Positions 509-64,000 of a DNA stretch of 64,000 nucleotides are shown piece after piece; the first letter of the stretch is position 1; every line of letters starts with the position of its first letter. The position numbers and the translations under genes were made by a program. The DNA is taken from NCBI GenBank assembly GCA_943736015.1, contig OX031060.1, positions 25,063,231 through 25,127,230 of the forward strand, read 5' to 3'. This stretch comes from Tridacna crocea (taxonomy: Eukaryota > Mollusca > Bivalvia > Cardiida > Cardiidae). The notes under the pieces are model-generated. The model ran no database searches and was not told the origin of the DNA. It saw only the letters and a list, made by a program, of their open reading frames with translations.

Positions 509-716
509 TTAACCCTTTTCCAAACAATCCCTGGTTTTTACGGGTCTGGAATAGTAGCCTTTTGAAAACAATGTGGGAAAAGGAGAAAATGCTGGTGACC
601 AATGTTTTCTACCCTATCATAGACAAAAATCATCTTTTCAGAAAGAGTTGAATTGTCGTTTGCAAATGCTTTCAATTTGGTCTAGTCCAAAAGTTTATCG
701 TTTGGGAAAGGGTTAA
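509..716 (+). mobile_element. TTAA-FB type 4
   Basis: Both termini are TTAA, with TTAACCCTTTTCCAAAC at left and GTTTGGGAAAGGGTTAA at right. The left arm carries the GGGTCTGGAATAGTAGCC signature. Most of the right half of the central palindrome is deleted, so only one arm of the hairpin remains. Confidence 0.82.
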
Positions 717-752
717 GGACAATGTCCGTGTCAAACTCTGTGAAAAAGAGGT

Positions 753-876
753 TTAATGCATTTGCAAAAGGTATCAACCCAAGTCAGTGTGTGCAGTCTT
801 CTCCTTTTTCCCACAATGTTTCAAAAGAACTTTTTCTCAGGGTCTTCAAAAGTTGGGATTGTGTGGTAAAGTGTTA
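753..876 (-). mobile_element. TTAA-FB right-part fragment, first unit of a duplication
   Basis: Ends in GTGTGGTAAAGTGTTAA and keeps the CCCACAATG part of one hairpin arm. The left half is missing. It is a diverged direct repeat of 1103-1226, and a complete copy lies between the two. Confidence 0.65.
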
Positions 877-1106
877 ACCCATTACCATACAATCCCTACT
901 TTTGACGCCCTTGAGAAAAACGCCTTTTGAAAACAATGTGGGAAAAGGAGAAAATGCTGGTAACCAGCATTTTCTCCTTTTCCCACAGTGTTTTCCACCC
1001 TTCCGAGAACAAATTTCAATTTTTCAGTCACCTTTATTTTGTTGTATGCAAATGCTTTCAATTTGGACCTGTCTAAAATTATATTATCTTGTGTGGTAAA
1101 GAGTTG
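873..1106 (+). mobile_element. TTAA-FB type 1, complete
   Basis: Starts TTAACCCATTACCATAC and ends GTGTGGTAAAGAGTTGA. The palindrome is full length with apex CTGGTAACCAG. It shares its first TTAA with the preceding fragment. Confidence 0.92.
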
Positions 1107-1226
1107 ATGCATTTGCAAAAAGTATCGACCCAAGTCAGTCTGTGCAGTCTGCCCCTTTTCCCACAATGTTTCAAAAGTCCTTTTTCTCACGGTCTTCAAA
1201 AGTTGGGATTGTGTGGTAAAGTGTTA
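1103..1226 (-). mobile_element. TTAA-FB right-part fragment, second unit of a duplication
   Basis: Same length (124 bp) and same breakpoints as 753-876, with roughly ten differences. Both begin TGATGCATTTGC or TAATGCATTTGC, so this is one duplicated block and not two independent insertions. Confidence 0.65.
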
Positions 1227-1564
1227 ATACAGGTTGCGATAGAAAGCAGCCAGTAGCTTGGGAAGAACATTGTGTGAAGCACTCCAGAAAAGCAAGGCCA
1301 GATGCACTGGCCATTGCCAAAAAAAAAAAACCTGATATAATGTTAAAAATAGCATCAGGCTTCAAACAAACTCAACAGACAAATGAGCAGCATGCTGGGA
1401 AAAGGGGCCAAATGATGTATTAACTAGCAAGTAATGACCATGGACCCATCAATAATAGATTTTGTGTCCCAACTGCTTGGATCAGAAGTTGGACTGAATG
1501 GGCCTTTATATACAAATTCACCAACTGCAAAAAACTTTTAAGTCTTTAAGACACAACCCATGTT
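1227..1564. other. unassigned DNA, no gene seen
   Basis: Contains the motif GTAGCTTGGGAAGAA followed by an A-run. The motif recurs near 3176 and 32461, so it may be a decayed retroposon tail. No convincing coding frame. Confidence 0.35.
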
Positions 1565-1784
1565 TTAACCCTTTCCCAAACAAGCCCTGGTTTATAATAT
1601 GTGTTTGCAGTAAAAGTCTTTAGAAAACACTCTGGGGAAAGGAGAAATTGCTTGTAATGAGCAATTTCTCCTTTTCCCAGTGTTTTCTACCCTTTTTGAG
1701 AACTTTCTGCCATTTTCTCCGAATCAAAAATTGTCATCTGCAAACTGACTTGAGGTTTTTGAAGGGTCCAAAATTTGTCGTTCT
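1565..1784 (+). mobile_element. TTAA-FB type 2
   Basis: Starts TTAACCCTTTCCCAAACAAG. The apex is TTGCTTGTAATGAGCAA, the type 2 apex with two changes. The right end stops at TTTGTCGTT without a terminal TTAA, where the next copy abuts it. Confidence 0.85.
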
Positions 1785-1950
1785 AAAACACTGTGGGAAA
1801 AGGAGAAAATGCCAGCATTTTCTCCGATTCCAACAATGTTTTCAACCCTGCTGGAAACAAATTTCAACTTTGGAGTTGCATTTATTTTGTCATCTGCAAG
1901 TGCTTTCAATTTGGATCAGTCTAAAATTCTTTTGTATGACAAAGATTTAA
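1785..1950 (+). mobile_element. TTAA-FB type 1, left end missing
   Basis: Begins inside the left hairpin arm (AAAACACTGTGGG) and runs to a terminal TTTAA. The apex is shortened to ATGCCAGCAT. Confidence 0.8.
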
Positions 1951-2294
1951 AGCCAAATACCAATTGAGGTTCCTAACTTGAAACATAACTGACACAATTT
2001 AGGTGTTGCTTTTGTAAACAAATAATCAAATAGAGACAAAATGTGCCTTGTGACATTGGATCTACATTGTTTGATACATTGAAATCCTTTATTTCGCAAA
2101 GTTGTTACAAGTTTAGGTTGTGTGTAATAAATTTAAATGAATCCATACAATACAACACATTTTTGACAAAGCTGACAGTTTGATTTCATGGTTAACAGAT
2201 AGCTTCTATGTTCTCTACAGATGACGGCTCAAATTAAACTTAGTATTCATATTGAAAGCATACTAATATTGAACACAATTGATTAAAGAAGGTT
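1951..2294. other. AT-rich DNA, no gene seen
   Basis: No repeat, RNA gene or coding-like segment recognised. A short frame opening at 2221 is explained by a decayed TTAA-FB arm. Confidence 0.4.
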
Positions 2295-2460
2295 CAGTTG
2301 ATCACCTTTGTCTTTCAAAAGGACTGTAAACATTGTGGAAAATATCATGACTGGAGAAAAAGTGGGCAGCCAGCTACCGTCATTTCTCCCACATTATGTT
2401 TTCAAAAGCTTTCTTTAATTTACAGTCATAAAAACACTGAGGGTTGCCTCGTGAAGGCTT
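2295..2460 (-). mobile_element. decayed TTAA-FB
   Basis: Only the hairpin region (AACATTGTGG, then CACATTATGTTTTCAAAAG) is still legible. No TTAA termini can be seen. Confidence 0.35.
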
Positions 2461-2709
2461 GAGCTATTTATCACCAGGCATCACCAAAAATAGGATAAAA
2501 AAGATATATAGGAAACAAACGAGGATTGGGACCAAGTCTCAAGTTTGATATATTTGTCAATGAAAGATTACCATCAGACAAAGAGGAGCCTCAATTTCAT
2601 AGATTTTTTTCTCCTACAAAATTTCGACCCTTCTCCCAGACTCTTCAGGTGGTAAAACTGTTCTAGTCACCACCATTTTCTTACTCAAAAGTCTTTTTGC
2701 AAGAAATCC

Positions 2710-2940
2710 TTAACTCTTTACCAGATGACAAAATTTTAGCCTTGTCCATATTGAAAGCAACTGCAGACGACAACTTTAAAAGTATAGCTCAAATGCTGCA
2801 ATTTTTCTTTGACAGGGGGGAAAACATTGTGAGAAAGTAGAAAATGCTGGTTACCAGCATTTTCTCCTTTTCTCACCACGTTTTCAAAAGGCTTCCTTCC
2901 CAGGGGTGTTAAAAGTTGTGATTGCGTGGTAAAGATTTAA
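2710..2940 (-). mobile_element. TTAA-FB type 1, complete
   Basis: TTAACTCTTTACCAGATGAC at one end and GCGTGGTAAAGATTTAA at the other. Intact apex CTGGTTACCAG. The next fragment shares its terminal TTAA. Confidence 0.9.
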
Positions 2941-3040
2941 CCGACTTTACCAGATGACAAAAGTAAATATTTTGTCATCAAAGATGGGATTGATCTTTGT
3001 ATTAGGGTAGAAAATACTGTGGGAAATGGAGAAGATGCTG
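2937..3040 (-). mobile_element. TTAA-FB half copy, broken at the apex
   Basis: One arm runs from TTAACCGACTTTACC to GAAGATGCT, then stops where a SINE-like segment begins. Traces of the other arm may follow after 3240. Confidence 0.5.
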
Positions 3041-3245
3041 AGCTTGAAACTGTCCAGTGTTTGCTGGTTTGAATCCCCTGCACATCCTTTTTCTATAAAA
3101 GAACTAGTGACTGTAACAAGGTTAATTCCTCTGTCACCTCCGATCATTGATGTTTTTTTTTTTTGTGGAAAAGTAGCAAGTGGCTTGGAAAGAAGTTTGT
3201 GCAAAAATACAAAAACCGTCAGTAAAGCATAAAAAAAAAACGCTG
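3040..3245 (+). mobile_element. possible tRNA-derived SINE
   Basis: Contains GGTTTGAATCC, a good match to the RNA polymerase III B box, followed by about 170 bp and an A-run at 3231-3240. The A box is not clear. Its position at the apex of a broken TTAA-FB suggests an insertion, with a possible short GCTG duplication. Confidence 0.35.
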
Positions 3246-3280
3246 GCAATTGAGATATTTTCTGAAATAATGTTGAAACA

Positions 3281-3510
3281 GTTAGCTGTTTACCAATAAC
3301 AGAATTTTAGACTGGTCCAAATTCAAAGCATTTGCAGATGACAAAATAAATGCGACTGAAAATTTGAAATTTGGTTTAAGAAGGGTAGAAAACATAATGC
3401 GGAATGGAGACAATGCTGATTACCAGCATTTTCTCCTTTTTCCCACAATGTTTTCAAAAGGCTTCTCTATGAGGGTCGTTAAAAGTCTGGATTGTGTGGT
3501 AAAGTTTTAA
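3281..3510 (-). mobile_element. TTAA-FB type 1, nearly complete
   Basis: Starts at a changed terminus GTTAGCTGTTTACC and ends GTGTGGTAAAGTTTTAA. Apex CTGATTACCAG. Confidence 0.85.
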
Positions 3511-3588
3511 AAGTGTAAACATTCAAACAAAGAAAGCAACAATAGTGAGGGACTCATTTTCACTCTTAAGTAGAACTGAAAAGCAAAT

Positions 3589-3874
3589 TCATAAATCTTT
3601 ACATGTAATCAAATAAATAACACTTTTGGAGATTGTTACAAAAGCTTTGCAACAAGAGAGATTGGTCATAGATCCATTATAAAATTCTGTCAAAAATCTT
3701 AGTCCAAGTACTTCTTGCAGCAGGAGAGAACAATTTGTAGTAACACAAAGGTCTGGGGAGAAAAGGTGAAAAGGGAGAAAGACACTGTTCAAATGCTTTG
3801 AACATTCAAAGAGACAATATTTACTTTCGGGCAACAAAAAACCTTCAAAAACTTCAAAGCTCTGCCTAGTTAAC
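3589..3874 (-). CDS. weak candidate terminal exon, unknown product
   Basis: On the minus strand a T-rich stretch ending in GTGAACAG resembles a splice acceptor and is followed by 94 open codons to TGA at 3589-3591. The predicted peptide is rich in Phe, Leu, Ser and Cys, which is what a T-rich strand gives by chance, so the coding case is weak. No domain, signal peptide or family is recognised. The first base would complete a codon left as AG at the donor of the candidate exon at 9831-9905, but that phase match alone has a one in three chance. Random AT-rich sequence is the main alternative. Confidence 0.2.
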
Positions 3875-4065
3875 CTGTTCACAAAAAAAAGTCCACAAAG
3901 TCATAACATAATTTCACAAACATCACTGAGAAATTTTATAAATCCTTTTTTTTCAACTTTTAACCATATAAAGATATCTTTGTCAGATTGATTCTGGTAA
4001 ATACAGTAACAGCTCTGCAACACTGCAACTCTCTGATTCTGGTTTCAAAGACACCAATGGAAATT

Positions 4066-6246: not shown

Positions 6247-6474
6247 TTAACCCATTACCACACAATCCCAACTTTTGACGCCCCTGTGAAAGAAGCCCTT
6301 TGAAAACACTGTGGGAAAAGAAGAAAATGCTGGTAAACAGCATTTTCTTATTTTCTCACAGTGTTTTCTAGCCTTCTCAAACCAAATTTAATTTTTAGGT
6401 TACCTTTATTTTGTCGTCTGCAAGTGCTTTAAATTTGGACCAGTCTAAAATTTTGTCATTTGGTAATGAGTTAA
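6247..6474 (+). mobile_element. TTAA-FB type 1, complete, first of a chain
   Basis: TTAACCCATTACCACAC to GGTAATGAGTTAA. Its last TTAA is also the first TTAA of the next copy. Confidence 0.92.
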
Positions 6475-6700
6475 CCCTTTACTCCATAGATACTCATTTC
6501 TACGCATTGCTTGTTGGAGCCTTTGGAAAACATTGTGGCAAAAGGTGAAATTGCTCGTGACGAGCAATTTCACCTTTTGCCACAATGCTTTCTACACTAT
6601 CAAAAGGTGTCATATACACATAAGAAACGGCTGACATCCTCGCTGTTATCTAGGGTCAATAAGAGATACCAAAGAAATGCCTTATTGGGTAAAGGGTTAA
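6471..6700 (+). mobile_element. TTAA-FB type 3, complete, second of a chain
   Basis: Reference copy for type 3. Starts TTAACCCTTTACTCCATAG and ends GGGTAAAGGGTTAA. Perfect hairpin GGTGAAATTGCTCG, TGA, then the complement. Outside the termini it differs from type 1 along its whole length. Confidence 0.9.
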
Positions 6701-6807: not shown

Positions 6808-6924
6808 GAAACCATGCAGGTTTCTCGGTTCACTTTGTAAATTGAATTTCTCATCCATTTCCTATCGAAGTTAAAGTCATAAACCTCAACATAATGATAG
6901 ATATTCTGGTAAAGTCATCTGTAT

Positions 6925-7160
6925 TTAACACTTTACCACAAGATCAACTCTTCAACAAACCTTTGGAACAAAGAATTAGAAAACCTTGTCTGAAAAAGAG
7001 ATAATGCTGGTAACCAGCATTATCTCTTTTTCAGACAAGGTTTTCCAGGCTTTGAAAGACAACTAAGTGCTTCATTTGAGGCACATGTTCATAGATAAAA
7101 TTGTCTACAAGTTCGTTGGATTTCAATAAGACTAGGATTTTGTTGTCTAGTAAAGAGTTA
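6925..7160 (+). mobile_element. TTAA-FB with divergent but self-matching hairpin
   Basis: The arms read CCTTGTCTGAAAAAGAGATA instead of the family CATTGTGGGAAAAGGAGAAA, yet the opposite arm carries the exact complement of every change. The hairpin is therefore still perfect. Termini TTAACACTTTACCAC and GTAAAGAGTTA. Confidence 0.82.
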
Positions 7161-7390
7161 TATGACATCACAAACATTAATTTTGTGTTTTATTACCCTT
7201 TAGTGGGTGCTCGATTATTTTGCTAGGTTTACCAATTCTCAAACTTTCATTTATTCCCTTGCTACTAGTTTACTTGCCATTTTGCAACATTTACAGTTTG
7301 CAAAGGCTGAGCCAGATTGAAACTTTTTAACTGTCCTTAAATTTTGTATAATTTCTGCATGTCAAAAGGCCATTCTACCTCCTGATATAC

Positions 7391-19524: not shown

Positions 19525-19837
19525 AAAACAAATAGATGCTAGCAACACCTTTAACCCATTACCACACAATCCCTACTTTTGATGCCCATGAGAAAGAAGC
19601 CTTTAGAAAACATTGTGGGAAAAGGAGAAAATGCTGGTAGCCAGCATTTTCTCCTTTTCCCACAATGTTTTCTACCCTTCACAAAACAAATTTCCAATTT
19701 TCAGTCCCTTTTATTTTGTCATCTACAAATCTTTTCAATTTGGACCAGTCTAAAATATTGTCGTTTGGTAATGGGTTAATTGTAGTATCATTTAAAACAA
19801 ATAGATGCTAACAATAGCATTAATTGTAGTATCAGTT
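19525..19837 (+). repeat. 44-bp tandem duplication, one unit carrying a TTAA-FB
   Basis: Left flank AAAACAAATAGATGCTAGCA (19525 on) and right flank TTAATTGTAGTATCA (19776 on) are repeated at 19794-19834 as an uninterrupted unit with a single TTAA at 19820-19823. Subtracting the 225 inserted bases gives a period of 44 bp. Confidence 0.9.
19551..19779 (+). mobile_element. TTAA-FB type 1, complete, with empty site alongside
   Basis: TTAACCCATTACCACAC to GTTTGGTAATGGGTTAA, 229 bp. The neighbouring duplicate unit preserves the unoccupied site, showing that the element added 225 bp and duplicated TTAA. Confidence 0.97.
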
Positions 19838-26245: not shown

Positions 26246-28780
26246 ACAAGAGCCGTCAGAGACGGGTTATGCTCCCTGAACAAGTGCTTGTCATAAAATA
26301 TATGAAATTGATATAAATTTACTTCTTTTATCCTAAAAGGACCTGTTCATGCTCCCCAAAAATTGAAGTGAAAAGGCAATTACTTTCTTTGAGATAGCCA
26401 ACACAAACTTGTAGATGACAATAAGCCCACTACGCCCCCTTTAAGCCCTCTTTTCCCATAAGGCAATATTGCATCATTGAAATAAATACAACTGGTGTGT
26501 GATTTGTGGCATTTTTTAGTAATAATTCAAAATTCGAAATTTCATAAAATTTTGAGCAGTCATGTCGTAAATATTACATAAAATGATTTTTTACATGGAG
26601 CCCCCTTTTTCCATGACGCAGCCTAAAATTGAGAAACCGGAAGAGAGGTACCTGGCAACGTTCCAACAAGTTCAGATTTGAAATTTCACAAAGTTTTGAG
26701 CACAGATGTAGGAAATACAAATGAAAAACAATTTTTTTCCATAAAGTCCGGCCTTTTTCCGTGGCGCAGCCTCAGATTGAGAAACCAGGAAAGAGGTATT
26801 TGCGCATTTAATAACTCATAGATTGAAAATAACAATGGTACATGTTAAAACTTGTAAAATAAGATATAACCATGAAGTTTCACGAAATTTTGACAAAAAC
26901 TGAACGAGATATTAGTAAAAATTGCAATTTTGCATTAAGGCCCCTTTTTCCTTGGCATTTTACAAGAAACCCCCTTTTTTCATGACAGAAGGTCAAATTG
27001 AAAAACACATAGATAAAGAAACAAGAGCACATGGTGAAACTTTGAAAAAACAATATAACCATGAAGTTTAATGAAATTTTGACCAAAACTGAATGAGACA
27101 TTAGTAACAAGAGGGCCATGAGGGCCCTGTATCGCTCCACTGGCTAATTCGTAAAAACACTACAAGCCAAACATTACATTATTTGGCCAACTGGTTTCAA
27201 ACTTGAGGACATACAATTTTTTTCCATAAAAACCTACAAAAAAGCTGAGACCCCTGGGCAAATCCAATTTTGAACACAAAGCTATAATTGTATCCTGGTG
27301 GAAGTCTACAAGATAAAGCCCCATACCAAATAATACAGGTGTAGAATGTGTAGTTATAAACAAGAAGATTTTCAAAGTTTTCTCAATAAAAGGACCTGTA
27401 CAACATAAAATCCATGAGACAGGGCTAAATTTAGTGGTCCTAGTCTTTATTATGGTTAGTAACAAGATGACATAGAAAGTTTTCACCACAAAAGCCCATG
27501 TAAAACTTGTGACCCCTGGTGTTGGGACAAACTTGACCCTAAGGCTATAATTTGGGCCCTCCTGGTAGAGGCCCACTAGATAAAGCTACATGCAAAATTT
27601 GATAGCCCTAGGCCTTATGGCTAGGTACAAGTAGATTTTTAAAAAATTCCCAATATGAGCCCATGTAAAACTTGTGACCCCCAGGACAAGGCCAAATTTG
27701 ACCCCAGGGCTACAATTTGGGCACCTTTGGTAGACAACCACTTGATAAAGCTAGATGCAAAATTGAGTAGCCCTAGGCCTTATGGCTTGGTACGAAAAGA
27801 TTTTTAAAGTTTTCACTATATAAGCCCATATAAAACTTGTGACCCCCCGGGGCCGGGTCAAATTTGACCTCTGGGCTATCATTTGGGCACTCTGGGTAGA
27901 GTTCTACTAGATAAAGCTTCATGCCAAATTTGGTAGCCCTAGGCCCTATGGCTAGGTACCAGAAGGATTTTAAAGTGTTCCCTATATAAGCCCATATAAA
28001 ACCTGTGACCCCTGGGGTGGTGCCAATTTTGACCCTAAGGCTATTATTTGAATGAAATTGGTAGAGGTCCATGAGATAAAGCTACATGCCAAATTTGGTA
28101 GCCCTAGGCCTTATGGTTTCAGAGAAAAAGATTTTTAAAAATTTTCAATATTTTTCAGTTTTGTTGCCATGGCAACCAGAGTTTTTGAAGGAATAAAATT
28201 CTTTCAAGGAATTCTGAAGAGGACCATGGCAGGATCATTTCGGTGAAGTTTCATCAAAATTGGATGGGTAGTTTCAGAGAAGAAGATGTTTGAAATAAAA
28301 GTTAATGCACGCACAGACGCACGTATGCACGCACGCACGGATGCACAACAGACACCGGGCCATGACATAAGCCCGCTGGCCTTCGGCCAGTGGAGCTAAA
28401 AATTGGAATTTTGCAAGAAACCCCCTTTTACCGTGACAGAACATCAACTTAAAAACGCCTAGATTAAAAATAGTAAGGGCACATGCTGAATCTTTCCATA
28501 AACAATATAACCATGAAGTTTCATGAAATTTCAACAAAAACTGTATGAGATATTAAGTAAAAATTGCAATTTTGCATTAAGTCCCTTTTTTCCATGACAC
28601 GGGGTCAAATGGAAAAAGCGGGAAAGACGCGTCGGCGCCTTACCCTAAGGTCAGTTCATATATGAAGTTTTATCCAATTTGGTCCAGGGGTTGCGGAGAA
28701 ATGGCTTCGGACGGACGGAAGGACAGGCGGATTGACAGATGTACCTGCGACTATATGCTCGCCCTTCGGGGAGCATAAAA
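26246..28780 (+). mobile_element. repeat element with TATGCTCCC / GGGAGCATA termini, interrupted
   Basis: Starts ACAAGAGCCGTCAGAG then GGTTATGCTCCC, and ends in the hairpin GCTCGCCCTTCGGGGAGC followed by ATAAAA. The 5' subterminal TATGCTCCC is complementary to the 3' GGGAGCATA. Internally it carries repeated units of the TTTTTCCATGACRC type. A hairpin-ended element without a clear target duplication, entering an A-run, suggests a Helentron-like or related non-autonomous transposon; this is an inference. Confidence 0.65.
27107..28400 (+). mobile_element. GCTCCACTGGC element nested in another element
   Basis: Starts ACAAGAGGGCCATGAGGGCC then GCTCCACTGGC, and ends CTGGCCTTCGGCCAGTGGAG CTAAAA. 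It interrupts the outer element between GACATTAGTA and AATTGGAATTTTGC, which are contiguous in the outer element's own internal repeat. It contains tandem units of about 166-170 bp starting GCCCATRTAAAACTTGTGAC. Open frames across it are periodic by-products. Confidence 0.85.
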
Positions 28781-30514: not shown

Positions 30515-30741
30515 TTAACTCTTTACCAAACAACAAGATTTTAGAATGGTCCAAATTAAAAGCATTTGCGGACGACAAAATAAATGTGACTCAAATATTA
30601 AAATTTGTTTTGAGAAGGCAAGAAAACATTGTTGGAAAAGAAGAAAATGCTGGTTCAGCATTTTCTCCTTTTCCCACAATGTTTTCGGAGGGCTTCTTTC
30701 TGAGGGTCGTTAAAAGTCGGGATTGTGTGGTAAAGAGTTAA
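30515..30741 (-). mobile_element. TTAA-FB type 1, complete
   Basis: TTAACTCTTTACCAAAC to GTGTGGTAAAGAGTTAA. The apex lost four bases (TGCTGGTTCAGCA). Confidence 0.92.
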
Positions 30742-32855: not shown

Positions 32856-33083
32856 TTAACCCTTTCCCAAACAATCCCTGGATTTTACGACCCTGAGATA
32901 GAAGCCTTTTGAAAACATTGTGGGAAAAGGAGAAAATGCTGGTATCCAGCATTTTCTCCTTTTCCCACAATGTTTTCTACTTTTCTTGAAACAAATTTCA
33001 ATTTTTGAGTTGTGTTTATTTTGTCGTCTGCAAGTGCTTTCAATTTGGACCAGTCTAAAATTTTGTCATTTGGTAAAGAAGTT
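32856..33083 (+). mobile_element. TTAA-FB type 1, right end shared with another copy
   Basis: TTAACCCTTTCCCAAAC start. Right end GGTAAAGAAGTTTGAAG in place of GGTAAAGAGTTAA. Its last 49 bp and the following 129 bp are identical to 36052-36229. Confidence 0.87.
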
Positions 33084-33212
33084 TGAAGTACCGTAAATAT
33101 CTTCAATTATAATAGAGATAATGCAAATTGTCAAAGTTTTTGTATGAGGACACAACAACACCTTGGCAATGGCAATAACTTGTCATTTTTTTCCTAAAAA
33201 AGCCGAGCAAAA
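33035..33212 (+). repeat. 178-bp block identical to 36052-36229
   Basis: From TGCTTTCAATTTGGACC, across the right end of a TTAA-FB, to AGCCGAGCAAAA. I find no difference between the two blocks, although the adjoining parts of the two TTAA-FB copies differ visibly. Confidence 0.9.
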
Positions 33213-34970: not shown

Positions 34971-35417
34971 TTAACCCTTTACCTCATTTATAAGGCATTT
35001 GTATGGTATCTCTCCTTAACCCTAAATAACAGCAAGAATGAAGCTGTTTCTTATGTGTATATGACACCTTCTGATAGCATAGAAAACAATGTGGCAAAAG
35101 GTGAAATTGCTCGTCACGAGCAATTTCACCTTAACCCTTTACCACACGAGAAAATTTTAGATTGGTCCAAATTGAAAGCAATTGCAGACAACAAAATAAA
35201 CATGACTAAAAAATAGAAAGTTGTTCTGGGAAGGATATAAAACACTATGGGAAAAGGAGAAAATGCTGGTTACCAGCATTTTCTTCTTTTCCCATAGTGT
35301 TTTCAAAAGGCTTTTTTCTCAGGGGCATCAAAAGTAGGGATTGTGTGGTAATGGGTTAAGCCACAATGTTTTCCAAAGGCTCCTACAAGCAATGTGTAGA
35401 AATGAGTAAAGGGTTAA
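34971..35417 (-). mobile_element. TTAA-FB type 3 interrupted by a type 1 copy
   Basis: Starts TTAACCCTTTACCTC and runs through GGTGAAATTGCTCG to CAATTTCACC (35130). It resumes at 35360 with GCCACAATG and ends GTAAAGGGTTAA. The intact type 3 copy at 6471 shows CACCTTTTGCC at the same point. Confidence 0.88.
35131..35359 (-). mobile_element. TTAA-FB type 1, complete, nested in type 3
   Basis: TTAACCCTTTACCACACGAG to GTGTGGTAATGGGTTAA, 229 bp, flanked by TTAA on both sides inside the right hairpin arm of its host. Confidence 0.96.
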
Positions 35418-35640
35418 CCCATTACCACACAATTCCGACTTTTTACGACCCTGAGAAAAAGCCTTTAAAAACATTGTGGGAAAAGGAGAAAATGCTGGTA
35501 ACCAGCATTTTCTACTTTTCCCACAATGTTTTTTACCCTTTCCAAAACAAATTTTAAATTTTCAGTCACTTTTACTTTGTTGCCTGCAAATGATTTTGAT
35601 TTGGACAAGCCGAAAATTTTGTTGTTTGGTAATGAGTTAA
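35414..35640 (+). mobile_element. TTAA-FB type 1, complete
   Basis: TTAACCCATTACCACAC to GTTTGGTAATGAGTTAA. Shares TTAA with both neighbours. Confidence 0.95.
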
Positions 35641-35866
35641 CTCTTTACCAAACAATCCCGACTTTTAACGACCCTGAGAAAGAAAGCCTTTGAAAACATT
35701 GTAGGAAAAGGAGAAAATGCTGGTAACCAGCATTTTCTCCTTTTCCCACAATGTTTTCTACCCTTTCCAAATCAAATTTCATTTTTTTGATTCACATTTA
35801 TATTGTCGTCTGCAAGTGCTTTCAATTTGGACTGGTCCAAAATTTCGTCGTTTGGTAATGAGTTAA
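35637..35866 (+). mobile_element. TTAA-FB type 1, complete
   Basis: TTAACTCTTTACCAAAC to GTTTGGTAATGAGTTAA. Same orientation as the copy before it. Confidence 0.95.
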
Positions 35867-35873
35867 GCAGTGC

Positions 35874-36101
35874 ATAACCCTTATCAAACAATCCCTGGTT
35901 TTTACAACCCTGAGATAGAGTCCCTTTGAAAACATTGTGGAAAAAGAAGAAAATGCTGATAACCAGCATTTTCTTCTTTTCCCACAATGTTTTCTACCCT
36001 GCTTGAAACAATTTCAATTTTTGGGTTGGGTTTTATTTTGTAGTCTGCAAATGCTTTCAATTTGGACCAGTCTAAAATTTTGTCATTTGGTAAAGAAGTT
36101 T
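35874..36101 (+). mobile_element. TTAA-FB type 1, right end shared with another copy
   Basis: ATAACCCTTATCAAAC start. Both hairpin arms carry the matched change AAGAAG and CTTCTT. Right end GGTAAAGAAGTTTGAAG as at 33083. Confidence 0.87.
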
Positions 36102-36229
36102 GAAGTACCGTAAATATCTTCAATTATAATAGAGATAATGCAAATTGTCAAAGTTTTTGTATGAGGACACAACAACACCTTGGCAATGGCAATAACTTGT
36201 CATTTTTTTCCTAAAAAAGCCGAGCAAAA
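36052..36229 (+). repeat. 178-bp block identical to 33035-33212
   Basis: See the partner block. The identity starts inside the TTAA-FB right arm and ends at GCCGAGCAAAA, after which the sequences are unrelated. Confidence 0.9.
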
Positions 36230-36935: not shown

Positions 36936-37162
36936 TTAACCCATTACCACACAATCCCTACTTTTGACGCCCCTGAGAAAGAAGCCTTTTGAAAACACTG
37001 TAGGAAAAGGAGAAAATGCTGGTAACCAGCATTTTCACCTTTTCCCAGTGTTTTTTACCCTTCCCAGAACAAATTTCAATTTTTCAGTCACCTTTATTTT
37101 GTCGTCTGCAAATGCTTTCAATTTGAACCAGTCTAAAATTTTGTCGTGTAGTTAAGAGTTAA
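36936..37162 (+). mobile_element. TTAA-FB type 1, complete
   Basis: TTAACCCATTACCACAC to GTGTAGTTAAGAGTTAA. Apex CTGGTAACCAG. Two bases lost from the right hairpin arm. Confidence 0.94.
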
Positions 37163-40535: not shown

Positions 40536-40761
40536 ATAACCCTTTCCTAAACAAGCCCTGGTTTTACGTATCTGCAGATAAAGTCTTTGAAAACACTGTG
40601 GGAAAAGGAGAAATTGCTCGTAACGAGCAATTTCTCCTTTTCCCACAGTGTTTTCTACCTTTTTCGAGAACTTTCTGCAATTTTCTCCAAATCTAAAATT
40701 GTCATCTGCAAACTCTTTCGGTTTGGAAGGGTCCAAAATTTGTTGTTTAGGAAAGGGATAA
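40536..40761 (+). mobile_element. TTAA-FB type 2
   Basis: ATAACCCTTTCCTAAACAAG to GTTTAGGAAAGGGATAA. Perfect type 2 apex TTGCTCGTAACGAGCAA. Confidence 0.92.
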
Positions 40762-42197: not shown

Positions 42198-42427
42198 TTA
42201 ACCCTTTCCCAAACGACAAATTTTGGATTCTTCCAAACTGAAAGAGTTTGCAGATGACAATTTCTGATTTTAAGAAAATGGCAAAAAGTTCTCAAAAAGG
42301 GTAGAAAACACTGTGGGAAAAGGAGAAATTGCTCGTTACGAGGAATTTCTCCTTTTCCCACAGTGTTTTCAAAAGAGTTTTACAGCCGACACGTAAAAAC
42401 CAGGACAAATGTTTAGGAAAGGGTTAA
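42198..42427 (-). mobile_element. TTAA-FB type 2, complete
   Basis: TTAACCCTTTCCCAAACGAC to TTTAGGAAAGGGTTAA, 230 bp. Apex TTGCTCGTTACGAGGAA. Confidence 0.93.
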
Positions 42428-42808: not shown

Positions 42809-44346
42809 TTAACCATTTACAAAACAATGGCATGTTTTAACAACACTGATGAAAAAGACATATGAAAATATTGAGTAACAAGAGGGCCATGATGGCCCTG
42901 TATCGCTCCACTGGCTAATTCGTAAAAACACTACAAGCCAAACATTACATTATTTGGCCAACTGGTTTCAAACTTGAGGGCATACAATTTTTTTTCACAA
43001 AAACCAACAAAAAAGCTGTGACCCCTGGGCAAATCCAGGTTTGACCACAAAGCTATAATTACTTGAATCCTGGTGGAGGTCTACAAGATACAGCCCCATA
43101 CCAAATAATACAGGTCTAGAATGTGTGTTTATAAACAAGAAGATTTTCAAAGTTTTCTCAATAAAAGGCCCTGTAAAACATGAAATCCATGAGACAGGGC
43201 TACATTTAGTGGTCCTAGTCTTTATTATGGTTAGTCACAAGATGACTTAGAAAGTCTTCATCACAAAAGCCCATGTAAAGCTTGTGACCCCTGGTGTGGG
43301 GACAAACTTGACCCTAAGGCTATAATTTGGGCCCTCCTGGTAGAGGCCCACTAGATAGAGCTACATGCAAAATTTGGTAGCCTTAGGCCTTATAGCTAGT
43401 AGATAATAGTAGATAATAGCTATATACAAGTAATTTCTTAACAAAATCCCAATATGAGCCCATGTAAAACTTGTAACCCCCAGGACAGCAAAATCCAGGA
43501 CAGGGCCAAATTTGACCCCAGGGCTACAATTTGGGCACCTTTGGTAGACAACCACTTGATAAAGCTAGATGCAAAATTGAGTAACCCTAGGCCTTATGGC
43601 TTGGTACGAAAAGATTTTTAAAGTTTTCACTACATGTATATAAGCCCATATAAAACTTGTGACCCCCGGGGCCGGGCCAAATTTGACCTCTGGGCTATCA
43701 TTTGGGCACTCTGGTTAGAGGTCAACTAGATAAAGCTACATGCCAAATTTTGTAGCCCTAGGCCCTATGGCTAGGTACCAGAAGAATTTTAAAGTTTTCC
43801 CTATATAAGCCCATATAAAACTTGTGACCCCCGGGGTGGGGCCAATTTTGACCCCAGGGCTAATATTTGAAGGAACTTGGTAGAGGTCCACTAGATAAAG
43901 CTACATGCCATATTTGGTAGCCCTAGGCCTTATGGTTTCAGAGAAGATTTTTAAAAAATTTCAATATTTTTCAATTTTGTTGCCATGGCAACCAGAGTTT
44001 TTGAAGGAATAAAATTCTTTCAAGGAATTCTGAAGAGGACCATTACAGGATCATTTCTGTGAAGTTTTATCAAAATTGGATGGGTAGTTTTCAAAGAAGA
44101 AGATATTTGAAATAAAAGTTAACGCACGCATGCACGCACACACACACGGACGGACGCAAGACGGACACCGGGCCATGACATAAGCCCGCTGGCCTTCGGC
44201 CAGTGGAGCTAAAAACAGAAAGGTTGTAGCCACAATGTTTTCTACCATTCCTAACAAAAATTTCCAATGCTGAGTCAAGTCTATTATATTGTCTTAAAAT
44301 GCTTTCAATTGGATTAGTCAAAAATTTTGTTGTTTTGTTCAGTTAA
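42809..44346 (+). mobile_element. TTAA-FB split by a GCTCCACTGGC element
   Basis: Left part TTAACCATTTACAAAAC to GAAAATATTGAGTA. Right part resumes at 44216 (AGAAAGGTTG, CCACAATGTTTTCTACC) and ends TTCAGTTAA, shared with the next copy. Confidence 0.78.
42878..44215 (+). mobile_element. GCTCCACTGGC element, second copy
   Basis: ACAAGAGGGCCATGATGGCC start, CTGGCCTTCGGCCAGTGGAG CTAAAA end. Same internal 166-170 bp units as at 27107 and very similar throughout. Ends in a CACGCACACACACACGGACG tract before the terminal hairpin. Confidence 0.87.
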
Positions 44347-45730: not shown

Positions 45731-46187
45731 TTAACCCATTACCACACAATCCCTACTTTTGACGACCTTAAGAAGAAGCCTTAACCCATTACCACACAAT
45801 CCCTACTTTTGACGCCCCTGAGAAAGAAGCCTTTTGAAAGCATTGTGGGAAAAGGAGAAAATGCTTGTAACCAGCATTTTCTCCTTTTCCCACAATGTTT
45901 TCTACTCTTCACAAAACAAATTTCAAATTTTTAGTCACCTTTATTTTGTCGCCTGGAAATGCTTTCAATTTGGACAAGTCTATAATATTGTCGAGTGGTA
46001 ATGGGTTAAGAACACATCGCGGGAAAGGGAGAAAATGCTGTTAACCAGCATTTTCTCCTTTTCTGACAATGTTTTCCATTCTTCACATAGCAAATTCTAA
46101 ATTTTCATTCACTTTTACTTTTTCATCTGCCATTTTATGCTTTCAATTTGGACCAGTCCAGAATTTTGTTGTTTGGTAAAACGTTAA
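45731..46187 (+). mobile_element. TTAA-FB type 1 interrupted by another type 1 copy
   Basis: First 50 bp (TTAACCCATTACCACAC to AGAAGAAGCC), then the inserted copy, then continuation from 46010 with GAACACATCGCGGG to GGTAAAACGTTAA. The junction corresponds to GCCTTTTGAAAACAC in unbroken copies. Confidence 0.9.
45781..46009 (+). mobile_element. TTAA-FB type 1, complete, nested in its own kind
   Basis: TTAACCCATTACCACAC to GAGTGGTAATGGGTTAA, 229 bp, same orientation as its host, TTAA on both sides. Confidence 0.96.
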
Positions 46188-46245
46188 TCACCGTAGGTTT
46201 CATTTCTCTCACTTCACTGACCTTGACCAGTCTAAAGGGGCCTAC

Positions 46246-46608
46246 CATCTTCGCGAGCCAAAGTTATGATCACTACATGGATCTTACCTTGGCAGATTGA
46301 GCCCGATTTCGAGATTCCTGCAGTGCATTTCTAAAAGCCAATGTAATATCGTTTTACAAACCGCTTATGAATACACATGAAACGATAAGCAGACATCCAC
46401 GTGGGTTTCCATGTTTACCTTCTATTCGAAAGGTAGCGACGTTGTTCTATTTTTATCAAAGATAAAATGCTACCAGCGATTTCATTCACTGCAGTTAGGG
46501 CTTGCTATATCCAATGAAAAAGTGTATCGGGTGAATGTAAAAATCAAGCTCGATCCCGCAAGGCTAGAGTAACAGTAGTGAACCGTCAGTCTTGGCTAGC
46601 GAAGACTG
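46246..46608 (+). mobile_element. CATCTTC element, copy 1
   Basis: Termini CATCTTCGCGAGCCAAAG and TCTTGGCTAGCGAAGACT are inverted. Flanked by GGGCCTAC (46238-46245) and GGCCCTAC (46609-46616), an 8-bp duplication with one mismatch. It sits at the head of a SINE. Confidence 0.78.
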
Positions 46609-46616
46609 GGCCCTAC

Positions 46617-53667: not shown

Positions 53668-53897
53668 TTAACCCATAACCACACGAGAAAAATTTAGACT
53701 GGTCCAAATTGAAAGCATTTGCAGACAACAAAAGAAAGGTGACTGAAAAATTGAAATTTGTTCTGGGAAGGGTAAAAAAACACTGTGGGAAAAGGAGAAA
53801 ATGCTGGTTACCAGCATTTTCTCCTTTTCCCACAGTGTTTTCAAAAGGCTTCTTTCTCAGGGGCGTCAAAAGTAGGGATTGTGTGGTAATGGGTTAA
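53668..53897 (-). mobile_element. TTAA-FB type 1, complete
   Basis: TTAACCCATAACCACACGAG to GTGTGGTAATGGGTTAA, 230 bp. Perfect palindrome. Confidence 0.95.
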
Positions 53898-54607: not shown

Positions 54608-55010
54608 CATCTTCCCGAGCCAAGGTTACAATCACTACATGGATCGTACCTTGGCTGATTGAGCCCGATTTCGAGATTCCTGCGATGCGCCTTCTATTGG
54701 ATGCTAGTTATTACCCCCCTTTACATCATATTTCTAAAAGCCAATAAGATATCGTTTTACAAACCACTTACGAATATACTTGAAGTGATAAGCAGACATC
54801 CACATGGGTTTCCAAGTTTACCTTCTATCCGAAAGGTAGCGACCTTATTCTATTTTTATCAAAGATGAAATGCTACGAGCGATTTCATTTGTTCCAGTTA
54901 GAGCTGGCTGCATCCAATGAAAAAGTGTATTGGAGGCATGTAAAAATCAAGCTCGATCTGCCAAGGGTAGAGTAGCGTAGTGAATTGTCAGCCTTGGCTT
55001 GCGAAGATGC
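54608..55010 (+). mobile_element. CATCTTC element, copy 2
   Basis: CATCTTCCCGAGCCAAGG to CCTTGGCTTGCGAAGATG. Flanked by exact TTATGGTT at 54600-54607 and 55011-55018. Shares GGTTTCC, ACCTTCTATYCGAAAGGTAG and TTTTTATCAAAGATRAAATG with copies 1 and 3. Confidence 0.87.
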
Positions 55011-58751: not shown

Positions 58752-58989
58752 CTAGAAGAGCAGTTATCAAGGACCGTCTAGGGTCATGTGGTCTTACCAA
58801 TATTATTTTCTCCCAGTGTTTTTCTACATCAAATATTAATAAATAAATGTCCTGTGAATGGACAGGATGTCATTCAGTAGCCAGCCTAGACACATTTATT
58901 GACCCTATGATAAAGATAACTGACTGTGTAACATTCTGCTGCCAGTGGACACTGAAAGACATTGTTTGCACACCTGTTCTACCTCTAGC

Positions 58990-59165: not shown

Positions 59166-60072
59166 TTATACCTGTATCATACTGTACTGTATTTGGTCTC
59201 TCAGGTGCTATACATAAACATGTATTCAATTTGGCTTCTGCAACTGCTACAAAGAAAGGCATTTTAGTAGAACATTTTGTCCTTTGGCTACATTAGAGAC
59301 TGTATCAGCTTGTACTGAACCAATACTTTATAGCACTTTATCAACCTTGAAGCTTACTTGTTTACTGGTGAACATTGTTTTCAAAACTTCTTCAACAGAA
59401 GTCCAGTAAAATAAATTAAATACCAGAGGGAAGGAAATGCTCTGACTCCACCCCCATCCCACAGACACACACACTTAGAAGTCAATAACTCATGGTTGAG
59501 AAGATCCTTAGGAGCTGGAAGCTAGTTTTGAATTTTCAGCTTTAGAAACTTCAAGGAGTTTCAATGAAAGGAGAAAAAACACATCCCTGTACAAACATAT
59601 CTTTGGAGCCAGTGTACCTATCCATATGGAATTTTAGGAAAAATGCGGTTACCGGATTCGTGAAATGGTACTGGTTTGATATTGCACAGCATTTATGTAA
59701 AATACAGTCATATTTTAAAAAAAAAAAAATGTTCTAAATGTGGAGACTTCCTCATGGTTAGAACTGGAAACGTTGACTTTTCTTGTAAACGGCTTACATC
59801 CACTGAAATCTGGAAACCAAAGTATCATATAATAAGACGAGTACGTTTTCAGTGGGACCCCCCCTGAGAAAGATATCTGGATCCGCGCTTGTTCTAACAT
59901 CAGATAGCCTTGGAAAAGGCATAAAAAATGTTATGCTGAATGAAAATGATGGTGGTAGCCTTTCCGAGAAGGTTTTTCCAGCCTTTAGAAACAACACACT
60001 TGATTTCAGATTTTGAGTAACAGGTACTCTGCTGTCAGCAGACAGATGCTTTAACTCAGACACTTCTTAACC
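59166..60072. other. about 0.9 kb without a recognised gene
   Basis: Includes an A-run of 13 at 59717-59729. No repeat or supported coding segment. Confidence 0.4.
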
Positions 60073-60478
60073 CATCTTCGCAAGCCAAGGCTGACGATTC
60101 ACTACACTACTCTAGACTACCTTTGGCGGATCGAGCTTGATTTTTATTCACCCAATACGCTTTTTCATTGGATGCAGCCAGCTCTAGCTGCAACGAATTA
60201 AATCTCCCATAGCATTTCATCTTTGATAAAAATAGAACAAGGTCGCTACCTTTCGTATAGAAGGTAAACATGGAAATCCATGTGGATGTCTGCTTATCGT
60301 TTCATGTGTATTCGTAAGCAGTTTGTAGAACGATATTTCATTTGCTTTTAAAAATATGATGTAAAGGGGGGTTATTACCAGCATCCAATAGAGGGCGCAT
60401 CGCAGGAATCTCTAAATTGGGCTCAATCATCCAAGGTAAGATCCACGTAGTGATGGCAACCTTGGTTCGTGAAGATGG
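60073..60478 (-). mobile_element. CATCTTC element, copy 3
   Basis: CATCTTCGCAAGCCAAGG to CCTTGGTTCGTGAAGATG, inverted relative to copies 1 and 2. Flanked by exact TCTTAACC at 60065-60072 and 60479-60486. The right duplication overlaps the terminal TTAACC of the next TTAA-FB, so this element landed on that border. Confidence 0.87.
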
Positions 60479-60480
60479 TC

Positions 60481-60701
60481 TTAACCCTTTACCACCTGAT
60501 CCCATTTTAATGGCCATAAGAAAGAAGTCTTTAAAAAACATTAAGGGAAAAGGAGAAAATGCTGGTAACCAGCATTTTCTCCTTTTCCCCCAGTGTTTAT
60601 TACCCTTCCAAGGGCAACCAAGATCATTTGAATTAAATTATTGTCTGCAAGAATGCTTCAATTTAGATCTGTCTGAAATTTTGCTGTATGCTAAAGGGTT
60701 A
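60481..60701 (+). mobile_element. TTAA-FB type 1
   Basis: TTAACCCTTTACCACCTG to GTATGCTAAAGGGTTA. Apex CTGGTAACCAG. Confidence 0.88.
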
Positions 60702-60925
60702 TATCATCATCCTGTCATCTGGTAAAAGGTTTAAGTGTTTGATTAATATGGAGATAGGTATTATCAAATTTAACTTATCAATCTTTGCATTCAAATACAG
60801 ACTTTAATACTAGGCTAAGAATGAAATGATAAAAAATGTTTTATCGGAAATACCCCTAATGTCACCATGGTACAAATGTTTTGTCATAAGTTTAAATTGA
60901 AACCTTTTTCACCTATTTAAACAGT

Positions 60926-61100
60926 TTAACCCTTTACCACAAATGCATAACATTTATAACTTGTCTAAATTCAAAGTCTTTGCAGACAGTAATTTAAATG
61001 TAACCTAAAATGTCAACAGTATTTTCTCCTTTTCCAACAATGTTTTCAAAAGGCTTTTTTCTTGGGACCTTAAAAATTTGTCTTTGTGGTAATGGCTTAA
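60926..61100 (-). mobile_element. TTAA-FB, first hairpin arm deleted
   Basis: TTAACCCTTTACCACAAATG to TTGTGGTAATGGCTTAA. Only the ACAGTATTTTCTCC arm remains. Confidence 0.72.
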
Positions 61101-61102
61101 AG

Positions 61103-61344
61103 CTATATACAAGACAATCTTTATGACCCTGTAAAACAAAGCTTTTGGAATCATCATTGGAAAAAAAAATGTTGCTATTTAAACAGTGTTTTCTCCTTTT
61201 CAGGCAATGATACCAACAGTTACCTAACCTTTAAAAAAAAAAATGTTTTGCCTATCATGAGTCTATCAACTTTAAGCCATCTTATGTTAACACATTCATT
61301 ACAGAAAAGGTCTTTCATTTTTGTCATATGGTAAAAAAGTTAGG
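61103..61344 (+). mobile_element. decayed TTAA-FB
   Basis: ACCCTGTAAAACAAAGC, AGTGTTTTCTCCTTTTC and TTTGTCATATGGTAAAAAAG are in family order with much divergence between. Confidence 0.42.
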
Positions 61345-61439
61345 CTTACAAATCTTTAAGTAAACACGGCCATTATTACAGATCAATATCAGAAAGTCAC
61401 TGGCCCTAATCGCACAAGGTTACACCCTTATGAAAAATC

Positions 61440-62170
61440 ACCACATTGCCATGTTGTAATCAGTGTGTTGCCAGTCTGTTGCCATTGTCCTCACAGTGTA
61501 TATCCAGATTATTTCCAGATTGTTTCCAGTCCATTGGGATTTATTTCCAGCTCAACCAGTGTATAACCATTGTATTGCCATTGCATTGCCAGAACTGGCA
61601 TCAGTATGGCACTATACTAGCACTAGGCTGACAACAAACTGGGAACAGACTGAATGCATATTGGGACATAAAAATTCATACTCAAATTATTTCATTCTGA
61701 ATACACCAAATTTAAGGAAGATTATCTCGTAAATCTGACAACAAACTGATACTAAACTGACAATGTAAAAAGATCTGACAATAATCGACCAATTTGTCTG
61801 ACAATAGGAGGGATTTTGGACTTTCCAGATAAATGTCAGACTATATCCAGAGTATTGTCAGGTATCTGACAATAATGCTGGTTACAGACTGGCAATACAT
61901 ATTCTGGTAATAGATGGCAATACTAGGTTCTGGTAATAAATGGCAATACTATTACCAAATGAAATGACCCTCTTATAAAACTGACAACAAGCTGATACTT
62001 GACTGACATAATGTAGAAAGGTCTGACGATAACTGCCCAATTCGTCTGACAATAGGAGGGATTTTGGACTTTTCAGATAGTGTCAGATATATGATAATAT
62101 GCTGGCTACAAACTGACAATATAGACAATGGTGATGAATGGCAATACTCGGACAATACAATGTGGCAGCA
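61440..62170. repeat. inverted arrays of degenerate TTGCCAGT units
   Basis: The first part (61440-61620) is rich in TTGCCAGTSTRTTGCC-type units. The later part (61870-62170) is rich in the complement CTGGCAATA. Between and within lies a direct repeat of about 240 bp period (TCTGACAATAGGAGGGATTT at 61797 and 62045). The layout is like the GTTCATGAAC element at 32216, but I see no clear terminal repeats. Confidence 0.6.
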
Positions 62171-62378
62171 ATAGAACTGTCACAAAGCACGGTAATACCC
62201 TTCACAAGCACCTTCTTACTGGGGCAGCACATTTAATGACCTTTATCTTGACCCACGTGACACAAAGCAATAGGTTACCTCCTTAGGTCTTGAGAAACAC
62301 TTGTATGAAGTTTCAGGGTCCCAGATCGAACACCTAAACTGCGTTAATGATTTGCATCCAGAACGAAAAGGGACCAGT

Positions 62379-62607
62379 TTAACCCATTACCACACAATCC
62401 CTACTTTTGACGCCTCTGAAAAAGAATCCTTTTGAAAACACTGTGGGAAAAGGAGAAAATGCTGGTAACAAGCATTTTCTCCTTTTCCCACAGTGTTTTC
62501 AACCCTTTCCAGCACAAATTTCTATTTTTGAGTCATCTATATTTAGTCGTCTGCAAATGTTTTCAATTTGGACCAGTCTAAAATTTTCTTCTGTGGTAAA
62601 GAGTTAA
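62379..62607 (+). mobile_element. TTAA-FB type 1, complete
   Basis: TTAACCCATTACCACAC to CTGTGGTAAAGAGTTAA, 229 bp. Apex CTGGTAACAAG. Confidence 0.95.
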
Positions 62608-62740
62608 AAACAAATATATACTATTCAAAATTTGCGTGGAACCATCATATAAGATTAAGCCTAGATACATATTCATGGTTTTACAATAATGTGACATTGC
62701 CCTACAGATTAAACAGACTACAAGTAGTGGAAATAGATCT

Positions 62741-62960
62741 TTAACCCTTTACCAAGCAAAGCCAACTTTTAAAGAGAATGAGAAAAGAAAGCCACTGGAA
62801 AACATTGCTGGAAAAGGGGAAAATACTGGTTACCAGCATTTTCTCCTTTCCCGAAATGTTTTTTAACCAAAGAAAGACAGTAAATTGTATGTTGTGTTTG
62901 GTTTTTAGTCTGCTTTCAACTTGGACGCTTCTAGAATTTGATAATGTGGTGAAGAGTCTA
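62741..62960 (+). mobile_element. TTAA-FB type 1, diverged
   Basis: TTAACCCTTTACCAAGC to ATGTGGTGAAGAGTCTA. Abuts the next copy. Confidence 0.87.
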
Positions 62961-63185
62961 CTCTTTACCACACAATTCTGACTTTTAATGACCCAGTGCA
63001 AGAAGCCATTTGAAAACATTTTGGGAAAAGGAGAAAATGCTGGATACCAGCATCTTCTCCTTTTCCATCAATATTTTCCACCATATCAAAGAAAACTCAC
63101 ATAATTTGAGCCACACTGAAATTTTCGTCTGCAGATGTTTTCAATTTGGACAAGTCTAAAACTTTGTCATTTGGTAAAGAGTTAA
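62957..63185 (+). mobile_element. TTAA-FB type 1, complete
   Basis: TCTACTCTTTACCACAC (mutated TTAA) to ATTTGGTAAAGAGTTAA, 229 bp. Apex CTGGATACCAG. Confidence 0.9.
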
Positions 63186-63330
63186 TGCAAAAATGTTCTA
63201 ACATATATATCCATACTGAAATATGTAAGTGATGCCTATCAAAATGTAGTATAAATTCTGCACATGTGTAAAAAAAGAAAATCACTTTTAACATAAATTC
63301 CCAAAATACTGAAAATGGATACTGTAGCAC

Positions 63331-63558
63331 CAATGATCCTTTAGCAGACAAAATTTTGGCCTTGTCAAAATTGAAAGCACTTGCAGATGACAAAAAAAAA
63401 TGTGACTGAAAAATTGGAAATTTGTTTTGGACAGGGAAGGAAACATTGCCAGAAAAGCAGAAATTCTGGATACCAGCATTTTCTTCTTTTCCCACAATGT
63501 TTTCTACGTCTTCTTTTTCAGGGTCTTTAAAAGTTGGCATTGTTCTTTAAAGGATTAA
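63331..63558 (-). mobile_element. TTAA-FB type 1, diverged
   Basis: GATCCTTTAGCAGACAAAAT start. Hairpin with mismatched arms. End TGTTCTTTAAAGGATTAA, which overlaps the stop codon of the candidate exon next to it. Confidence 0.78.
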
Positions 63559-63758
63559 ATTTAAGTAGTCAATGGTGCTGATATCTGCACTCTTCTGTTT
63601 TTGCCACTTTCTCATTTTTTCAGTTTTTGATTGTTCTCTCTTTTCTTCAGTTTCTGCTGAACATATAAAATTTTTCCCCTGCCTGCAGTGGCTGCATTTG
63701 TCATTTATAACTTTGATGAGGGAAGCTTCATCAACTTCATTTACTCGCTGAACAAATC
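63547..63758 (-). CDS. candidate terminal exon, unknown product
   Basis: On the minus strand TTTCCTTTAATTTCAG is a strong acceptor. After two bases, 69 open codons run to TAA at 63547-63549. First codon positions hold about 28 percent G against about 18 percent at second positions. The peptide begins FVQRVNEVDEASLIKVINDK, contains a CxxC (CSHC) and then a charged, probably helical tail (AETEEKREQSKTEKMRKWQK). The Cys pair could be part of a metal site, but I recognise no family. The last three codons and the stop fall in the terminus of the TTAA-FB at 63331-63558. Earlier exons would lie beyond the right edge. The plus strand is open for only 36 codons here. Confidence 0.55.
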
Positions 63759-63801
63759 CTGAAATTAAAGGAAAACAAATACAACTTTCACTCTCAACTC
63801 G

Positions 63802-64000
63802 TTAATTCTTTACCAAACGACAAAATTTTGGGTTTGTCCAAATGGAAATTATTTGAAGAAAACAAAATTAAAGTGACTGAAAATTTGAAATTTGCTTTGT
63901 GAAGGGTAGAAAACATTGTGTGAAAAAGGAGAAAATGCTGGTTACCAGCATTTTCTCCTTTTCCCACAATGTTTTCTAAAGGCGTCTTTCTCAGGGTCGT
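63802..64000 (-). mobile_element. TTAA-FB type 1, cut by the window edge
   Basis: TTAATTCTTTACCAAACGAC onward through an intact hairpin. The far end lies past position 64000. Confidence 0.92.

Follow-up and report, generated by a model that had tools for sequence, protein, structure and literature searches.

Analysis of a 64,000-base stretch of the genome of the bivalve Tridacna crocea (GCA_943736015.1, contig OX031060.1, positions 25,063,231 to 25,127,230 of the forward strand; hereafter the window) revealed a dense family of miniature inverted-repeat transposable elements (MITEs) with a TTAA target site, divided into subfamilies and carrying a 67-bp palindromic core whose differences between lineages are compensated, both partners of a base pair having changed so that the pairing is kept. 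We put at about 60% the probability that this is a piggyBac-type MITE in which the palindrome is a constrained module, presumably acting in cis in mobilisation. Copies are named below by their coordinates in the window or by their first position.

Copy number and structure of the family

An iterated nhmmer profile, based on ten copies in which both ends are present and cleared of matches lying for more than half under a better match, recovered 128 copies or fragments between positions 509 and 64000 (73 on the plus and 55 on the minus strand), 104 of them with E<1e-10. Retained matches overlapped by at most 6 bases, with one exception of 45, and the best match in the reversed window, which served as control, had only E=0.53. 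Element sequence amounts to 22,638 bases, 35% of the window. Both ends of the model are reached by 47 of the 128 copies, which are 185-266 bp long (median 229 bp), 33 of them falling within 225-233 bp. Short, uniform in length, dispersed in many copies and devoid of coding capacity, the family shows the features by which MITEs are recognised. Its 229-bp consensus consists of TTAA, a 13-bp terminal repeat, a 38-bp left arm, the 67-bp palindrome, a 90-bp right arm, a second 13-bp terminal repeat and TTAA. A representative complete copy, 229 bp long with TTAA at both ends, lies at 19551-19779 on the plus strand; its core (19606-19672, same strand) carries T-A at the pair formed by model positions 63 and 115.

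The initial annotation, made from the sequence alone, had described a dense palindromic TTAA family, and this observation is confirmed. Its estimate of about 115 copies or fragments falls between the strict and the permissive count, and the claim that one non-autonomous family of about 229 bp fills roughly a third of the window agrees with the coverage and median length found here. The 66-bp central palindrome that it reported exists, but is 67 bp long and off-centre, and of the CCC-starting repeats with TTAA ends the TTAA stood, whereas at its right end the consensus has CTC instead of CCC. It was also right in distinguishing two palindromic levels, termini and core, of which the conservation and compensated pairs of the core proved more informative.

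Conservation of the palindromic core

The core occupies model positions 56-122, and all 33 of its consensus pairs are complementary around an unpaired centre base at position 89. Among the 87 copies with at least 150 aligned positions, substitutions from the consensus are fewest in the core (10.3%), followed by the ends (14.7%) and the arms (23.0%); in the 66 long copies, with at least 200 aligned positions, the mean pairwise differences are, in the same order, 16, 24 and 33%. The consensus of a 32-copy subfamily differs from that of a 3-copy subfamily at 6 of 67 core, 45 of 127 arm and 6 of 32 end sites, and the six core differences constitute three compensated pairs, 63/115, 81/97 and 86/92. 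With another subfamily cut, three pairwise comparisons gave 14/199 differences in the core versus 114/372 in the arms. The young consensus and the three-copy subfamily C differ at 4/67 core, 48/127 arm and 8/26 terminal-repeat sites (Fisher test, 4.7e-7 for core against arms and 0.003 for core against repeats), and in this one subfamily comparison the internal region is thus more conserved than the ends, as in the coral CMITE group discussed below. In subfamily C the divergence of the repeats is similar to that of the arms, while the core was kept; whatever reads the core may accordingly be more conserved than the surface that recognises the ends.

A related element, here called D (6471-6700, plus strand), is 230 bp long with TTAA ends and a similar core, and its relatives are copy 29929 and the interrupted copy 34971-35416. 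Its core is identical to that of the main family at 57 of 67 positions, and eight of the ten differences form four compensated pairs, one of the others being central and one unpaired. The right arm of D, when aligned with that of the main family, scores like shuffled sequence (173 of 300 shuffles were equally good), while for the left arm 8 of 300 shuffles were equally good. Finally, copy 6925-7161 (plus strand) shows ten core differences, all of them in five compensated pairs with none broken, and its core (6979-7045, plus strand) is a perfect palindrome. Element D, subfamily C and copy 6925 were picked after inspection of the core table and the tree, and the statistics given for them are not those of a blind test.

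Changes accumulated by individual copies are of another kind. Relative to their own subfamily consensus, 35 copies display 81 one-sided changes, 14 compensated and 2 uncompensated doubles against 2.8 doubles expected, counts that include pair 63/115, which is variable within the large group. Decay of copies is therefore mostly one-sided, whereas lineage-marking changes are mostly two-sided. Core tests used either the 89 of 128 copies with at least 50 of the 67 core positions or the 72 with at least 64; these 72 complete cores together contain 434 differences and 310 broken pairs.

Two cores are predicted to fold at about -51 kcal/mol; the stretch 19605-19671 forms a single hairpin of -50.7 kcal/mol. 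No Rfam family, microRNAs included, reached its gathering score in the window, and a lax scan of 6900-7200, which holds one copy, gave only matches below threshold, at best 43.6 versus 100 bits; going by the predicted folding, a role of the core as hairpin RNA is possible. Another reading, in which the core would be a series of binding motifs similar to the ends, was rejected: the likeness of CCTTTTCCCACA, located in the core, to the left end (10/12, p=0.038) and that of CCCTTCCCAAA, located in the right arm, to a C-type end (10/11, p=0.006) emerged among nine comparisons.

Target site and terminal repeats

With ends set from the profile, exact TTAA is found at the left end of 36, at the right end of 34 and at both ends of 28 of the 47 copies. 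Beyond TTAA, over three positions each way, the two sides agree in only 9-15 of the 47, and a longer target duplication was rejected on these grounds. The 13-bp terminal inverted repeat that follows TTAA is imperfect, with consensus ends CCCTTTACCACAC and CTCTTTACCAAAC, the latter being the most frequent right end (6/48 copies); left ends start with CC or CT in most copies. At positions 6, 8 and 11 of the 13 compared, the left and right repeats agree more often than expected by chance (permutation p of 0.005, 0.0005 and 0/2000, respectively; 48 copies, relatedness not controlled).

Two copies of the divergent subfamily C illustrate the target. Copy 42198-42427 (minus strand) has TTAA at both ends and terminal repeats CCCTTTCCTAAAC and CCCTTTCCCAAAC, and copy 40537-40761 (plus strand), whose core is a perfect palindrome, has ATAA on both sides, which suggests that the four bases belong to the target and not to the element. 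Nested insertions provide further evidence. An older copy (45731-46187, plus strand) is split by the younger copy 45781-46009 (plus strand), with TTAA on each side, and a D-type element (34971-35416, minus strand) is interrupted by the main-family copy 35131-35359. In both cases the joined flanks align across a single 4-bp site with uninterrupted relatives. That site reads TTTA, TTTT or TTTG in five aligned relatives of the first host, and AAAA in both relatives of the second, where each interrupted copy has TTAA, in the second case a difference at two of the four bases. Two explanations are conceivable, a prior mutation of the host copy to TTAA or a non-standard target site into which the element carried its own TTAA. 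In a third nested copy, 30515-30741, the target site is too diverged to read. A search for empty sites within the window returned junction-spanning matches for 8 of 55 joined flanks, some of them because the neighbours are copies themselves; four cases were inspected, of which two (45781 and 35131) are clear, one (30515) is nested but diverged, and one (35876) reflects a flank duplication. The TTAA duplication proposed initially is thus supported by paired flanks, by nested insertions and by the ATAA/ATAA copy. Outside the elements TTAA occurs 290 times, against expectations of 406 (first order) and 322 (second order); given the latter value, depletion as a sign of site saturation is not pressed.

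Superfamily assignment

The TTAA target and the ends mostly starting with CCC fit piggyBac, and on these sequence features a non-autonomous element of piggyBac type is likely. The initial annotation had drawn the same link from TTAA and CCC; it holds as likely, and we infer it rather than observe it because no transposase was seen in the window open reading frames (ORFs) scanned. It is very improbable that the element comes instead from another TTAA-duplicating group such as Kolobok or Sola3, the latter presumably a TTAA group and as such a candidate superfamily. Kolobok duplicates TTAA, and its KolobokP lineage is described as abundant in bivalves, but its termini follow a 5'-RR...YY-3' pattern (PMC9587614), whereas the ends here are mostly 5'-CCC or CTC...GGG or GAG-3', and with such left ends Kolobok was rejected. 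Moreover, the alternative target ATAA is shared with Pokey, a piggyBac element of Daphnia (PMC3849761). As a rule, piggyBac elements are described as having inverted repeats of 12-19 bp with a CC[C/T]T motif (PMC2872659); some copies have CCCT at this place and others CCCA or CTCT. Exact pattern scans for relatives gave zero matches in viral contigs (three patterns) and in genome contigs (one pattern).

Origin of the core symmetry

Under the preferred explanation, the MITE would have entered its TTAA sites by cut-and-paste transposition, with a transposase, probably of piggyBac type, supplied from elsewhere in the genome, and several source lineages would have sustained this activity for a long period. 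In these sources the 67-bp core would have changed slowly and in compensated pairs, the symmetry itself being kept, most likely because the core acts in cis when the element is mobilised; the transposase or a partner protein might, for instance, bind it as a site of dyad symmetry. Once inserted, copies would decay, mainly through one-sided changes. Dimers of the C-terminal domain of the piggyBac and piggyBat transposases are described as binding palindromic internal sites (PMC7351741, PMC11707139), and a dyad-symmetric core needed for mobilisation would, by analogy, fit these sites as well as the coral CMITEs.

Several observations count against this explanation. With regard to the superfamily, the commonest left end (CCCATT) and the right ends with CTCT do not fit CC[C/T]T, and neither a transposase nor an autonomous partner was found: among the 269 window ORFs of at least 45 amino acids with less than 30% element sequence, 23 were scanned against Pfam and none exceeded the cut-off, the scan giving only three weak matches below it (E 0.026-0.066). 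The 67-bp palindrome also far exceeds the 19-bp internal repeat of piggyBac. With regard to the core, the groups compared are small, subfamily C consisting of three copies and D of three, one of them truncated and one interrupted. When copies 509 and 58105 are added to C, the differences become 3/67 in the core and 42/128 in the arms, with one core difference unpaired; taken alone, these two copies give 3/67 (one at the centre and two at 63/115, which are non-complementary) and 34/128, in comparisons whose few-copy consensuses contain ties. Copy 52050, which has a D-like left end and a core identical at 57/67 positions, shows one compensated pair and seven broken ones, and only 3 of the 72 complete cores are perfect palindromes. 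Lastly, in the ten youngest copies 24/668 core and 78/1279 arm positions have changed (p=0.018; singletons p=0.087), so that part of the core conservation may not reflect constraint on the sources; this lower change is explained fully by neither constraint nor correction.

Correction is the explanation in which mutation itself keeps the palindrome, template switching during replication (quasi-palindrome correction) copying one arm of the palindrome from the other and so making one-sided changes compensated in active or dead copies. It predicts compensated pairs, and these are in excess. In a double-change test on the 89 copies, with per-copy and per-site rates held, compensated doubles numbered 64 versus 27.1 expected over all pairs and 38 versus 16.8 without the three marker pairs, while non-compensated doubles stayed at 36 versus 34.6 and 28 versus 26.5, respectively; eight slid pairings used as control gave no similar excess, the largest being 36 versus 31.3. 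Without the five lineage-marking pairs, the compensated count was still 29 versus 15.4 (p=0.0013), against 28 versus 24.2 for non-compensated doubles. Copy 6925-7161 kept its five unbroken compensated pairs despite arms 38% off the consensus and a right TTAA that reads TTAT, and was the clearest case when the 89 copies were tested singly (p=1.4e-5), followed by 6471 (4.4e-4), all others being above 0.01. In addition, a template-switch mechanism has been proposed for RNA hairpins (PMC8794818). The excess nevertheless falls to 24 versus 15.2 (p=0.022) without copy 6925 and to 20 versus 13.9 (p=0.074) when 55210 is left out too, with non-compensated doubles at 28 versus 23.9 and 27 versus 21.9; as it shrinks without the marker pairs and copy 6925, much of the signal belongs to the source lineages and to this copy. 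Furthermore, among the 22 listed complete cores with the most changes, 20 contain at least four broken pairs, and unbiased correction alone should not slow divergence, while the core lies about four times below the arms. Since correction yields compensated pairs but does not by itself slow divergence, constraint is preferred and maintenance by mutation appears rather unlikely, although template switching is a possible contributor beside constraint. A shade less unlikely, but still doubtful, is a combination in which the palindrome would be a module of its own, common to elements with unrelated arms (main family, C and D), its perfection renewed by arm-to-arm copying, so that each copy would record palindrome repair in neutral DNA.

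Similarity of the core across subfamilies might also stem from conversion or recombination of copies with one another, the arms being exchanged around it. A chimeric copy (1565-1950) is present, copies 32856 and 35876 combine an identical 133-bp flank with different left parts, and element D has the core in common but a different right arm. Conversion between copies would not, however, place the leftover differences in compensated pairs, and we consider this origin quite improbable beside a constrained core.

Subfamilies, arrays and other repeats

Identity to the consensus ranges from 64% to 93% in the 87 copies (median 83%), and the tree of the 66 long copies contains several subfamilies. The nearest pair, 4.4% apart, consists of copy 36936-37162 and one of the youngest copies, 53668-53897 (minus strand), with C-G at core pair 63/115. 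A single recent burst was rejected, given the subfamilies and the intermixed divergences, which extend from 4.4% in the nearest pair to 36% relative to the consensus. Of the recent or repeated burst suggested initially, the first part does not agree with a median of 17% from the consensus and with the subfamilies, and the second stands, the sequences pointing to long, repeated activity. The density, 35% of a 64-kb stretch, is high, yet explicable by repeated MITE activity alone.

Three head-to-tail copies form an array at 35414-36096 (plus strand), the first two with a common TTAA at 35637-35640. Tandem duplication was rejected as its origin, each member grouping with a copy elsewhere in the tree, which argues for serial insertion beside existing copies, once into the common TTAA. 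The 133-bp flanks 33080-33212 and 36097-36229 are 100% identical, against a difference of 9% between the elements that they adjoin, copies 32856 and 35876; these flanks are a recent local copying or conversion tract extending from the element into the flank. The chimera at 1565-1950 joins a copy ending at model position 214 to one starting at position 52. Two short related stretches, 713-877 and 1107-1227, each beside a full copy, combine the left end of the element with a different inner part, which suggests a duplicated pair or a further MITE variant.

The window also contains two 90% identical copies of a 1.3-kb repeat (27112-28402 and 42883-44215), which include arrays of a 165-bp tandem repeat (27476-28151 and 43503-43935). 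This tandem repeat resembles what we take to be a bivalve satellite type, and a literature text search with fragments of it found no paper. A dispersed repeat of about 400 bp is present in three copies 77-88% identical (46244-46610, 54608-55009 and 60071-60479).

Implications of a conserved interior

MITEs are usually defined by their ends, the interior being treated as filler. Here no part is better kept than the interior, and its differences between subfamilies come in pairs that preserve the palindrome. This suggests either that mobilisation has a cis requirement so far unrecognised or that a mutational process maintains palindromes in perfect form. With more than 100 copies in 64 kb, a genome-wide set could separate both readings and measure the rate of palindrome correction in a eukaryotic genome, making the family well suited to testing how palindromes in DNA are maintained.

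Comparison with known systems

Literature searches on bivalve piggyBac MITEs, palindromes of piggyBac MITEs and the sequence of this element, as well as on compensatory change in MITEs and palindromic MITE cores, gave no description of it among the matches listed. The element is a known kind of MITE, and its slowly changing, compensated palindrome is a feature not found described in the literature searched. Template switches that maintain hairpins likewise leave compensated changes that keep the hairpin paired, although, in the text available, they are described for RNA genes, unlike the dispersed transposon core studied here (PMC8794818). The ends of piggyBac and piggyBat resemble the element in the TTAA target (piggyBac) and in palindromic internal sites, which as described are about 14-19 bp, versus a 67-bp palindrome here that starts about 50 bp inside (PMC7351741, PMC11707139). 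The mPok MITEs, derived from Pokey of Daphnia, share TTAA targets with some ATAA or TTAT duplications, copies inserted inside the TTAA of other copies, and old and young subfamilies; in contrast, they are about 750 bp long and have a known autonomous partner, and a conserved palindromic core is not mentioned in the available text of that study (PMC3849761). The CMITEs of the coral Acropora are likewise piggyBac-like MITEs with a TTAA duplication, ends of 13-14 bp and end-to-end arrays, although only about 100 bp long versus 229 bp here (PMC2872659). They possess a 75-base internal region that has changed less between families than the ends have; the words 'hairpin', 'stem' and 'secondary structure' are absent from the main text of that paper. 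CMITE family I starts with CCCTTTCCC, the same as one subfamily C end in the window (PMC2872659).

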